Of a DNA stretch of 64,000 nt, positions 9,908 to 62,551 are shown in pieces. The notes beneath the pieces were generated by a model that was given only the letters and a program-made list of their open reading frames with translations, did not search any database and had not been told where the DNA came from. The position numbers and the translations under genes are program-made. Source of the stretch: an uncultured Eubacteriales bacterium (GTDB lineage: Bacteria > Bacillota > Clostridia > Oscillospirales > Oscillospiraceae); contig ONEB01000001.1 of the NCBI GenBank assembly GCA_900316745.1, positions 62,001 to 126,000 on the forward strand. The letters are read 5' to 3'. Position 1 is the stretch's first letter; each line of letters opens with the position of its first letter.

Positions 9908-10275
9908 TGGTGGAGATGGGGGGAGTTGAACCCCCGTCCGAAAGTGTTTTGACAGGAACTTCTCCGGGCGCAGCGGGTTGTCCTGACGCTCTGAAAGCGT
10001 CTGTTCCCATCACGGCGGGTCAACACGCAAACCCATCCGGTCCGGTAGCTTCATGATGCGTGGCTCGGGCAAAGCTTACCGAGCGCACGTTCCCCACTCA
10101 TCGACGCTCCGCATCCGGGCCGTGGGCCTCCCGGCGGGAACGCTCGCTAATTAAGCAGCGAGAAGAACAGTGTTATCGTTGTTCTTTAATTTATAAGGTT
10201 GCCCGTTTTATGGCGGTCAGGCGCCGCCGCCCGCTATTCCAGCCTCCACGCCCCCGTCGAAACCGTGACATCCCC
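9908..10275 (-). ncRNA. ssrA: Transfer-messenger RNA (tmRNA)
   Basis: 368-nt tmRNA that rescues stalled ribosomes and tags nascent proteins. The 5' end GGGGAUG pairs over 7 bp with CAUCUCC before the encoded ACCA at 9908. The conserved GGUUUCGACGGG follows the 5' end, and the T-arm GGGGGUUCAACUCCCCC lies near the 3' end. The tag reading frame ends ...NNDNTVLLAA followed by a stop at about 10151-10153. I cannot fix the resume codon by eye. The protein partner smpB is two genes upstream on the same strand. No clear promoter is visible just before the 5' end, where a repeat copy (10281-10493) sits, so processing from a longer smpB transcript is possible. Confidence 0.93.
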
Positions 10276-10280
10276 TCGTC

Positions 10281-10493
10281 AGACCGGGCGCACTCCACTT
10301 CGCAGCCGTGCAAAGGCTTTGCCTGTGCACGACGGCTTCGTAGCCGTTTCCCCGGTCTTCCTCTCCGAATCGAAGCGCAGCGGCTTCGATTCGGTTGGAT
10401 TCATAATGTTGCATTTTTGCACCGAGGCAAAGCTCCGGAGCAAAAATGATTCGACTTTCTTTCTTCGCCTGCGGGCGAAGAAACTCTGCGAGG
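10281..10493 (+). repeat. Hairpin-rich intergenic repeat, copy 3 (divergent)
   Basis: A gene-free 213-base stretch between tmRNA and the cyclophilin gene, full of perfect inverted repeats: AGACCGGG (10281) with CCCGGTCT (10351), CCGAATCGAAG (10365) with CTTCGATTCGG (10384), CATTTTTGC (10412) with GCAAAAATG (10440). The end is TTCTTCGCC-TGCG-GGCGAAGAA followed by ACTCTGCGAGG. The same end plan (stem, TGCG loop, ACTCTGCGAGG) occurs at 17200-17229 and 58062-58091 with different stem bases. GGTTGGATTCATA at 10393 also resembles GGATTGGATTCTAT of the 16905 copy. Orientation is opposite to both flanking genes. Confidence 0.65.
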
Positions 10494-10530
10494 TCTGGTG
10501 ATTTGACGATTACTCGTCCGATTGGTTCCC

Positions 10531-14748: not shown

Positions 14749-16869
14749 ATGATCATTACCCACAAGGAATTCCCCAATTACAAAAAGTATGAGATCGACT
14801 ATGAGGGCCGCAAGCTCTCCATGGAGGTCGGCAAGCTCGCGGAGCTCTGCAACGCCGCCGTGCTCGTGACCTACGGCGAGACAACCGTGCTCGTCACCTG
14901 CACCGCCTCTGCCCGCCCGAAGGACGGCATCGACTATTTCCCGCTCGCCGTGGACTTCAACGAGAAGCTCTACGCCGTCGGCCGCATCCCCGGCAGCTTC
15001 ATGCGCCGTGAGGGCAAGCCGAGCCTGCCCGCCGTGCTGGCGAGCCGCCTCATCGACCGCCCGATGCGTCCCCTCTTCCCCAGCGATCTGCGCAACGACG
15101 TCGTCATCGCCTGCGAAGTGCTGAGCGTTGACCGCGACTGCTCCCCCGAGATTACCGCGATGATCGGCGCCTCCGCCGCCGTGAGCATCTCGGACGTGCC
15201 CTTCAACGGCCCCATCGCCGGTATTGTCCTCGGCTGGGACGGCGAGAAGTATCTCTTCAACCCCACCCAGGAAGAGCGCAAGACCAACCGCATGATCACC
15301 ACCATCGCCGCGACTCACAAGAAGATCGTCATGATCGAGTCCGAGGCCGACCAGGTCCCCGACGACGTCATGTACGAGGGCATCGTGCAGGCGCATGCGC
15401 ATCTGCAGCCCGTCCTCGACCTCATCGACAAGATGGTCGCCGAGATCGGCAAGCCGAAGTTCGAGTATGAGCACGCTTCCTTTGACGAGGAGCTGTTTGA
15501 TCTCCTGTGCACCAACGAGATGGAAGGCATGGAGCACTGCATGGACACGGACGACAAGAACGTCCGCGAGGAGCGCGTGAACGAGTGGATCACCGCCGTG
15601 CAGGAAAAGTATGAGGAAGAGCACCCCGACATGATGCAGTTCATGGACGAGATCCTCTATAAGATGCAGAAGAAGATCGTCAAGAAGTGGCTGCTCGCCG
15701 GTCACCGCGTGGACGGCCGCAAGATGAACGAGATCCGTCCCCTCGGCGCCGAGGTTGGTCTGATTCCCCGCGTGCACGGCTCGGGTCTGTTCACCCGCGG
15801 CCAGACCCAGGTGCTGAGCATCGCGACCCTCGCGACCCTCTCCATGGCCCAGAAGCTCGACACGATCTGGGAAGAGGAAGAAAAGCGCTTCATGCACCAC
15901 TACAACATGCCCTCCTACTCCACGGGCGAGGCCCGTGCCAGCCGCAGCACCAACCGCCGCGAGTACGGCCACGGTGCGCTCGTCGAGAAGGCGCTGCAGA
16001 GCGTCATCCCCGAGGTCGAGGACTTCCCGTACGCCATCCGCGTGGTGTCCGAGGTTCTCTCCTCCAACGGCTCCACCTCCCAGGGCTCCATCTGCGGCAG
16101 CACGCTGGCTCTGATGGACGCCGGCGTTCCGCTGAAGGCGCCCGTTGCCGGCATCAGCTGCGGTCTGATTCAGGACGGCGACGACTTCACCACCTTTATC
16201 GACATCCAGGGCGTTGAGGACTTCCACGGCGAGATGGACTTCAAGGTCGCCGGCACCAAGGACGGCATCACCGCCATCCAGATGGACCTGAAGAACGACG
16301 GTCTGAAGCACGAGATCGTGAAGGAGGCCTTCCAGATCACCCGCGAGGCCCGCTTCCAGATCCTCGACGAGATCATGCTCAAGGCCATCCCCGAGCCGCG
16401 CAAGGAGCTGGCCAAGTCCGCCCCGAAGATGATCCAGATGAAGATCAACCCCGACAAGATTCGCGAGGTCATCGGCTCCGGCGGCAAGGTCATCCAGAAG
16501 ATCTGCGCCGACACCGGCTGCAAGATCGACATCGACGACGACGGCTCCATCTTCATCGCCTCCGAGGACATCGAGGCCTGCCGCGCCGCCCGCACCACGA
16601 TCGAGAACATCGTGTTCGAGCCCGAGGTCGGTCAGCTGTACTACGGCAAGGTCACGAACATCCGCGAGGACTTCGGCGCGTGGGTCGAGCTGGCTCCGGG
16701 CAAGGACGGTCTCGTGAAGATCAAGGACCTCGAGTTCAAGCGCACGAACAAGGTGGCTGACGTTCTGAACATCGGCGACATGTGCTGGGTCAAGGTCATG
16801 AACGTGGACGACCGCGGCCGCGTGGACCTCTCCCGCAAGGACGCCATGCGCGAAAAGGGACTCCTGTAA
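14749..16869 (+). CDS. pnp: Polyribonucleotide nucleotidyltransferase (PNPase)
   Basis: 706-residue 3'-5' phosphorolytic exoribonuclease, a component of RNA decay. Two RNase PH-like domains (about 12-230 and 310-540), with [15 protein letters not shown] in the first and the second core showing [20 protein letters not shown]. The KH domain (about 555-615) has [15 protein letters not shown]; the S1 domain follows at about 620-690 ([18 protein letters not shown]). It ends soon after S1, without a long acidic tail. The start is preceded by AAAGGAACAAAGGAT. Codons are strongly biased to C/G endings, as expected for a highly expressed gene. Confidence 0.98.
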
Positions 16870-16870
16870 T

Positions 16871-16897
16871 CCGTCAAAAAACTCCGTTTTTCGACGG
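16871..16897 (+). terminator. pnp terminator
   Basis: CCGTC..AAAAAC paired with GTTTTT..GACGG, loop TCC, starting two bases after the pnp stop. A U-rich strand is within the stem rather than after it. Confidence 0.6.
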
Positions 16898-16904
16898 AAG
16901 AGAC

Positions 16905-17230
16905 AACACTTCATGGAGCACGCTTGGACGAAAGTGCAGCTTTCGCGAAAAGCGTGCTCCATTTCGTGAGAAGTGTTTTCCGCGCCACGTCAGAAGAAAC
17001 TCGCTCCATTCCGCAGCCACGCAAGGCGTGACGGCTCCATATCCGCTCCTTCCTTCTTCCTTTCCAAAACAAAACAGGCGCTTTGTTTTGGTTAAGGAGG
17101 AATGGGGGCGCAAAAACGAAGCCGGTGAGCGTCAGCGAGGCTGCGGAGTGATGCAAGCCCATTCCGACGTGCCGCGCCGTGAAAACGGATTGGATTCTAT
17201 TTGCCGCTGCGGCGGCAAACTCTGCGAGGC
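16905..17230 (+). repeat. Hairpin-rich intergenic repeat, copy 1
   Basis: This gene-free stretch of about 325 bases begins with a two-stem structure: outer AACACTTC (16905) / GAAGTGTT (16970), inner GGAGCACGCTT (16915) / AAGCGTGCTCC (16950), internal hairpin around GGACGAAAGT and CTTTCGCGAA, and a 3'-side bulge TTTCGTGA. Further inverted repeats follow (CCAAAACAAA with TTTGTTTTGG; GGAATGGG with CCCATTCC). It ends with a 34-base segment at 17197-17230 identical to 58059-58092: TTTGCCGC-TGCG-GCGGCAAA then CTCTGCGAGGC. Copy 2 keeps the loops but has different, still complementary, stems. Open frames here look spurious. Confidence 0.75.
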
Positions 17231-17260
17231 ATTATCATGCAGAATTGGACGGTGATAAAA

Positions 17261-57904: not shown

Positions 57905-57946
57905 AGCCCAATTCAATCACGTTGCGATTGAATTGGAAAGTCTTGC

Positions 57947-58092
57947 ACTCCGCAGGGCGCTCTTGGACGAAAGTACGACTTTCGCGAAAAGAGCGCCCTG
58001 CTTCGTGAGCGGAGTTTTCCACGTCACGGCGAAGCCGCGGCGGGAAAACGATTGTATGCTATTTGCCGCTGCGGCGGCAAACTCTGCGAGGC
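57947..58092 (+). repeat. Hairpin-rich intergenic repeat, copy 2
   Basis: Outer stem ACTCCGC (57947) / GCGGAGT (58009), inner stem AGGGCGCTCTT (57954) / AAGAGCGCCCT (57989), conserved GGACGAAAGT and ACTTTCGCGAA inside, and 3' bulge with TTCGTGAG. A middle stem GTTTTCC/GGAAAAC (58014, 58042) follows. The end 58059-58092 is identical to 17197-17230. A separate hairpin CCAATTCAATC/GATTGAATTGG (57908-57936), probably the coat-gene terminator, precedes it. The 57905-58096 gap holds no gene. Confidence 0.75.
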
Positions 58093-62252: not shown

Positions 62253-62551
62253 CAAAAAAGCTCCTGTCGCAATGGGAATCGGTTGATGATTACCCATTGG
62301 GACAGAAGCGAAACTTCTGCGGTGCCACCCAATTTGACGGCAGATGCCGCCCACTCAGCGCCGTGCAGTCACACAGCTTCCCTTGGTAACGGCGGGAAAG
62401 GCCCGTCGGACTTCACAGCGAAAACGCTTCTCATCCGCCCTCGGCAGTCCATTCGGTCGGGTCCTCCCTGCCGCCATCCCACCGCCGGCGGCTCTCTGTG
62501 AGCTCGGAACTCCGCTTACTACTCTGCTTCATCGGTTTTTTGTTTTAACTT
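62253..62551 (-). promoter_or_regulatory. T-box riboswitch, tRNA-Trp specific
   Basis: Leader of about 300 nt on the minus strand. The T-box core GGGTGGCACCGC (62319-62330) and terminator CTGTCCCAATGGG/CCCATTGCGACAG followed by CTTTTTT (62254-62307) are clear. Stem I shows an AGTA element and AGAGAGC, and the specifier region reads CGAATGGACTG, so the specifier codon is UGG (Trp). Uncharged tRNA-Trp should favour the antiterminator and expression of trpB2. Confidence 0.92.

Follow-up and report, generated by a model that had tools for sequence, protein, structure and literature searches.

Two stretches of DNA from an uncultured Eubacteriales bacterium of the family Oscillospiraceae, one after the pnp gene and one after a coat gene, fold in the same way. 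Both lie in a stretch of 64,000 nucleotides of contig ONEB01000001.1, which we analysed at its full length and call the window. Do they represent a structured RNA, or a folding repeat of the DNA itself? The original prediction, made from the sequence, had left both answers standing. Our analysis suggests that both are probably diverged representatives of a MITE, a non-autonomous transposable element mobilised by IS1182-family transposases. The element, found in Oscillospiraceae, is about 155 to 200 bp long and carries four hairpins, with a core of about 155 nt. The computed support comes from its copies, covariation, end repeats, duplicated hairpins, relatives that lack it after the same genes, and IS1182 elements with such ends. 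A MITE is in itself an ordinary kind of element; the target duplication in the better-preserved copies and the elaborate folded core are unusual.

A four-hairpin repeat in the window

Both folded stretches (16905-16977 and 57947-58015) exist as predicted. On the + strand, their folding surpasses that of dinucleotide shuffles (z of -5.11 and -4.34, respectively; for either stretch, 0 of 200 shuffles folded equally well), and the window holds two instances of the pattern of near-identical loops where 0.00 would be expected. With up to three mismatches, the conserved loop was found at nine sites in the source genome and at 0 in the reversed control. The extent was drawn too short: both stretches do hold a hairpin, H2, but the element runs from H1 to H4, with one more hairpin before H2 and two after it, and has the 3′ end AACTCTGCGAGGC. 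The features in the window are given below, where R1 denotes the covariance model built from the element.

16871-17230, + strand: copy 1 as a whole, H3 broken by about 190 nt
16871-16897, + strand: H1 of copy 1 (CCGTCAAAAAAC..GTTTTTCGACGG), from the sequence; onset after a single base past the pnp stop codon
16899-17230, + strand: core of copy 1, H2 through the 3′ motif, split inside H3 (R1 matches 16899-17014 and 17071-17230)
16905-16977, + strand: H2 and outer stem of copy 1, the stretch of the original prediction (sequence and folding)
16986-17171, limits approximate, + strand: insert of about 190 nt within H3 of copy 1, by eye from the sequences
17200-17230, + strand: H4 of copy 1 (TTTGCCGC..GCGGCAAA) and 3′ motif AACTCTGCGAGGC, with an exact repeat at 58062
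57908-58092, + strand: copy 2 as a whole, core uninterrupted
57908-57936, + strand: H1 of copy 2 (CCAATTCAATC..GATTGAATTGG), directly 3′ of the stop codon of the upstream gene
57938-58092, + strand: core of copy 2 (H2 57952-58001, H3 58014-58049, H4 58062-58081, 3′ motif to 58092)
10353-10494, + strand: third copy, weaker and diverged (R1 53.8 bits, E 1.8e-9)

The core of copy 2, which is also part of the R1 seed alignment, is the top R1 match of the source genome (161.3 bits). A second block, TTTGCCGCTGCGGCGGCAAACTCTGCGAGGC, is common to copies 1 and 2 downstream. By eye, the insert that breaks H3 of copy 1 is also present in the source-genome copies L007/L021 and L015. Longer, similar-looking forms of it occur at L192 in genome G001 and at L145 and L150 in genome G007.

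A single architecture recurs in 16 aligned copies of the source genome: H1, a linker ending near TTGCACTYC, H2, a TTCGYGAG-like stretch, H3 (TTTTCC..GGGAAAA or alike), a further linker, H4 (TTTGCnnC..GnnGCAAA or alike) and AACTCTGCGAGGC.

The original prediction could match the element to no known family, and Rfam bears this out: at gathering score, the scan of the window gave tmRNA, T-box and tRNA only, and the element matched nothing. Nor did anything come near the gathering score in five element loci or at window positions 16850-17260, where the sub-threshold matches (E 0.014-0.81) look like chance. Membership of the element in an Rfam family was therefore rejected, for want of a covariance-model match at gathering score. 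The same scan placed the tmRNA gene (9908-10275, - strand) next to the third copy, and a T-box leader at 62295-62541 on the minus strand (RF00230, 100.4 bits).

Compensatory change in the helices

The compensatory changes on which the prediction was built are real, and they extend to further copies. Across the 16 source-genome copies, 29 of 42 pairs were doubly changed and the covariation score was 0.464, compared with 0.171 for shuffles and at most 0.148 for slid controls. It was 0.316 versus 0.116 in 112 R1 matches from other genomes, drawn from 100 of the collected loci and aligned by fitting to model R1. The signal sits in H2, H3 and H4. For the long-range helix P1, double changes were found in 1 of 6 pairs in the 16 copies and 2 of 6 in the 112 matches; this helix stays in model R1 without support from double changes.

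The strongly covarying helices are local hairpins and hence palindromes of the DNA too. Thus, the folding repeat of the original prediction stands, whereas the data do not amount to strong evidence in favour of an RNA. Covariation alone is no proof of RNA, as mobile palindromes may give the same signal.

Wobble pairs were considered as a means of telling DNA-level from RNA-level pairing. Among 2328 pairs of H3 and H4, taken from 158 distinct cores (156 yielded H4 and 113 yielded H3), the departures comprised 14 G-U and 30 A-C. The contrast is clear against 23 tRNA acceptor stems (10 G-U versus 1 A-C), yet 109 terminator-like hairpins behave like the element (9 versus 14), so these counts do not discriminate and the ratio was dropped as a proof of DNA-level pairing. 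Perfect hairpins of varied sequence are expected from selected RNA and DNA palindromes alike.

A structured non-coding RNA, either trans-acting or part of a 3′ UTR, present in many copies and with its helices under RNA selection, seems to us an unlikely explanation. Strong compensatory change in three hairpins, conserved unpaired motifs and the location of several copies directly 3′ of stop codons agree with such an RNA, but P1, the long-range helix tested, is barely backed by double changes. It is the end repeats, the duplicated hairpins in relatives and the multi-copy, patchy distribution that point to a transposable DNA element.

Distribution

Model R1 gave 27 matches in the source genome, which correspond to 25 copies, three of them in the window, since two pairs of matches are the halves of interrupted copies. 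L015 is one more copy, absent from the R1 output, and the candidate L025 was judged a chance match. In a survey of 40 genomes, 14 including the source genome had R1 matches and 26 had none. Counts reached 71 (G030), with 68 in G001, 50 in G007 and 12 in G020, all within the up to 75 candidates scored per genome, which limits the counts accordingly. Stricter filters were applied to 150 sampled genomes of the taxonomic family, from 106 genera; the element was present in 68 of the genomes and 57 of the genera. Among the matches listed, most named carriers are uncultured members of Oscillospiraceae or other Clostridia, and two are Pseudoflavonifractor isolates. Pseudoflavonifractor sp. An44 and An85 are cultured carriers, and An44 is placed in Oscillospiraceae.

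For inspection of individual copies, we took the best 20 of 50 in G007, the best 10 of 12 in G020, the best 20 of 71 in G030 and 10 of 68 in G001, the last chosen down the list. The G030 copies (L101-L120) are often preceded by more long palindromes, some common to several loci; this genome seems to carry further hairpin repeat families.

End repeats of the element

In G007, the repeat starts with GAGCCTGTCGAAAAAC, which pairs with its own complement to form H1. Many G007 copies end in GAGGC(C)TTTTTTGACAAACTG, and the reverse complement of this right end resembles the left end. Allowing two mismatches, a sequence like this terminal inverted repeat (TIR) precedes the core in 20 of 20 copies in G007, 7 of 10 in G001, 3 of 20 in G030 and 1 of 10 in G020. 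A TIR-like H1 was found in 8 of 25 source-genome copies (counting one half per interrupted copy) versus 45 of 1250 random windows, a low share that, like those of G030 and G020, speaks against the MITE reading. H1 of copy 1 (CCGTCAAAAAAC) matches the end-repeat hairpin in part and looks like a decayed form of it, judging from its resemblance to GCCTGTCGAAAAAC..GTTTTTCGACAGG of G007; copy 2 has no recognisable end repeat.

At L018 and L022, the 5′ arm of H1 reaches into the end of the upstream gene, stop codon included, so the element may have altered the last codons of that gene. This overlap raised the possibility that H1 is the host's own terminator. For most copies we discarded this idea: in G007, H1 is the end-repeat hairpin, and at several G020 loci it is found again with a common loop. 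Two minimal derivatives in G007 lie beside a terminator-like hairpin: L148 is just the 26-bp end hairpin CTGTCGAAAAACATGTTTTTCGACAG, and L147 combines an end repeat with an H4-like hairpin.

Relatives lacking the element after the same genes

We read about 620 bases at the pnp and coat-gene sites in relatives. As judged by eye, pnp is followed by a terminator-like hairpin without the element in 6 of 7 relatives, while G001 has a related element. After the coat gene, the element is absent by eye in 7 of 7. Likewise, 6 of 6 relatives read for the gene upstream of the G007 copy L094 have a terminator-like hairpin and no element. The relatives are other species with a mostly different downstream neighbour, and these cases therefore document that the element is missing behind the same gene but are not strict empty sites, a point against the MITE reading. 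Such patchy presence, with the element missing after the same genes in relatives, argues against a structured RNA. At L192, G001 carries a different, related element after pnp together with a second, reversed one, so the position after pnp has been struck in at least two species.

Duplication of flanking hairpins

Outside the ends of G007 copies lies a terminator-like hairpin, often on both sides. At L082, for instance, AGGCGTGGATGCTCAGAACATCCACGCCT abuts both the left and the right end, with a T-tract after the right copy. Among the matches listed, G007 and the named genomes together gave 87 distinct copies, of which 38 have a duplicated flank of 17 to 41 bp (median 29). For the named genomes, there were at least 120 stretches and the 80 loci listed were used; 72 copies passed the flank-length filter and 67 remained without the G007 duplicates. 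The cut-off score for duplication, 15, was picked after a first flank comparison, and cross pairs reach it in 0.04%.

Hairpins with a stem of at least 9 bp and a length of 21 to 41 bp make up 32 of these 38 duplicates, among the matches listed. The other six, which count against the MITE reading, are not clean hairpins over their full length, L085 and L291 being short non-hairpins and L087, L243, L254 and L261 fitting imperfectly. Paired bases amount to a median of 80% in the duplicates, against 23% in length-matched random windows (99th percentile, 62%), and for the 38 duplicates among the matches listed stem and length correlate at 0.54.

Duplication goes with the presence of ends. In a wider set of 148 copies among the matches listed, 39 have a duplicated flank: 38 of the 68 with at least one recognisable end versus 1 of the 80 with none (both ends against all others, Fisher p 5e-12). 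That the end repeats are tied to hairpin duplication speaks against a structured RNA, as does the lack of a clear orientation bias to the T-tract in the 38 duplicated cases (T 15, A 12, tie 11).

The best match between the two flanks is direct in 31 of the 39 copies and better inverted in 8, again among the matches listed, and the hairpins may thus be rewritten. This is one observation in favour of a mutational process, namely template switching in which one arm copies the other, that would keep the arms perfect without selection on structure. Watson-Crick pairing of the arms is indeed near-perfect, and the H4 arms of 156 copies come in 41 different sequences. However, the conservation of stem bases, loops and linkers argues for some constraint too, and we regard this process as a doubtful explanation of the arms.

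Flank similarity exceeded the cross-pair maximum in 9 of 20 copies in G007 and 1 of 10 in G001, and in 0 copies in G000, G020 and G030. In the source genome, window copies included, no duplication was found, mean self similarity equalling mean cross similarity (both 7.0) over 23 copies, which counts against the MITE reading; L048, L051, L052 and L053, the halves of two interrupted copies, were omitted from these flank sets. As the copies in G020 and G030 are numerous and have no duplications, a second mode of spread may exist.

IS1182-family elements with similar ends

With NCBIfam NF033551 as the search model, IS1182-family members were found in 9 of the 40 genomes (3 over cut-off) and, among the matches listed, in 12 of 29 element-bearing named genomes (5 over cut-off), where 30 loci were searched. 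We examined the ends at 11 longer loci (L161-L164, L336-L341 and L348). A TGTCRAARAA-type end is present on one or both sides at six of them: L161, L336, L337, L338, L341 and L348. Counting against the MITE reading, the full IS1182 loci L162, L163 and L164 have other ends (CTGTTGCAAAAC, CTGTTGACAAA and CTGTGAAAAAA, respectively), and L339 and L340 do not fit the end type either.

Both ends could be located at four loci, and two of these (L338 and L336) have the same hairpin on each side. At L338, from Pseudoflavonifractor sp. An44, the ends are CAGACTGTCGAAAAAC and CAGACTGTCGAAGAAC, each flanked by a hairpin with the stem GGTGTGGGGCGGGAA..TTCCCGCCCCACACC, the loop being inverted between the two; at L336, one base is changed. 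Conversely, the flanking hairpin is confined to one side at L161, and at L348 the two sides carry different hairpins; both cases weigh against the MITE reading. Two further IS1182 right ends in G007 (L179 and L182) run directly into a terminator-like hairpin.

The 3′ motif of the core was found in 0 of 7 IS1182 loci checked, and tblastn gave no IS1182 transposase at the named-genome element loci among the matches listed. Co-occurrence by genome was considered as well and set aside, the 40 genomes giving no association: IS1182 matches were found in 2 of 14 element-bearing versus 7 of 26 other genomes, with none in the source genome. All of these results count against the MITE reading.

A possible mode of insertion

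We infer from the shared ends and flanking hairpins that an IS1182 transposase moves the element in trans. An IS1182-type transposase would pick a terminator hairpin by DNA structure, and joining would take place at the 5′ feet of the host stem-loop. Gap repair would then copy the hairpin and leave one on each side of the element, as in pathway b of Wan et al. (2017). The duplicated target, mostly a whole hairpin of 21 to 41 bp, would be set by shape and not by a fixed number of bases. Observed in nature at some thirty sites, such duplication would indicate that an IS1182-type transposase selects its target by DNA structure, with joining possible at the 5′ feet of a stem-loop. Structure-guided transposition thereby becomes testable, the substrate being small and abundant.

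Since the window copies lack a duplication and their end repeats are partial or absent, they would be old insertions or stem-loop replacements. The latter leads to a further explanation, in which copies without end repeats, window copies included, were made by an IS1272-like replacement of the stem-loop, so that the terminator was replaced and not duplicated. Relatives do bear a terminator-like hairpin after the same genes, duplications number 0 in 23 source-genome copies, and IS1272 is reported to replace hairpins without duplication (PMC5678879, PMC4923244). Against this, a strong hairpin lies within 75 nt downstream of 6 of 25 source-genome copies versus 8 of 404 random windows, as expected had the terminator been kept. 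Many TIR-bearing copies show hairpin duplication, so replacement without target duplication does not describe them; the window copies are compatible with it. Overall, we consider replacement possible for the copies without end repeats, although not the probable course.

Returning to the MITE reading, what role the core plays is a separate matter. The four-hairpin core may be a functional DNA or RNA module of an IS1182-type system, present in over half of the sampled genera, although we judge this improbable. If true, the core would let a non-coding passenger borrow a hairpin-targeting transposase, and insertion would be harmless because a hairpin is left on each side. One would then be dealing with a two-component parasite whose speciality is the transcription terminator.

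Comparison with known systems

Dispersed intergenic repeats with a conserved fold are known from other bacteria, such as bcr1 of the Bacillus cereus group and REP/BIME, to which the present element is similar by description. Group IIC introns insert beside intrinsic terminators, as this element probably does; the Rfam scan of the window gave no match to an intron family. Some IS1182 members are catalogued with long direct repeats. The titles and abstract beginnings listed from the open-licence literature mention neither an IS1182 MITE nor an observed stem-loop duplication.

TnSha1/IS1272 of Staphylococcus inserts into hairpins, several of them confirmed terminators, with partial deletion and no duplication according to PMC4923244. 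For IS1272, PMC5678879 describes inverted-repeat replacement and proposes three pathways, among them pathway b, in which the entire stem-loop may be duplicated through joining at the 5′ foot (Wan et al. 2017). As cited there, Siguier et al. describe palindrome-targeting IS1182 members, without detailed data.

Our element resembles IS1272/TnSha1 in its hairpin target, which has no sequence consensus and includes several terminators (PMC5678879, PMC4923244), in its probable link to an IS1182-family transposase and in its terminal inverted repeats. It differs in that IS1272 is reported to delete or replace the stem-loop without duplication, whereas many TIR-bearing copies of our element have a duplicated stem-loop. 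Furthermore, its core is short, and our searches turned up no transposase alongside. With prokaryotic MITEs in general (review PMC10969869), it shares its short length, multiple copies and end repeats common to an IS. In contrast to these, its target duplication is a hairpin of variable length, and it carries a long internal covarying core.
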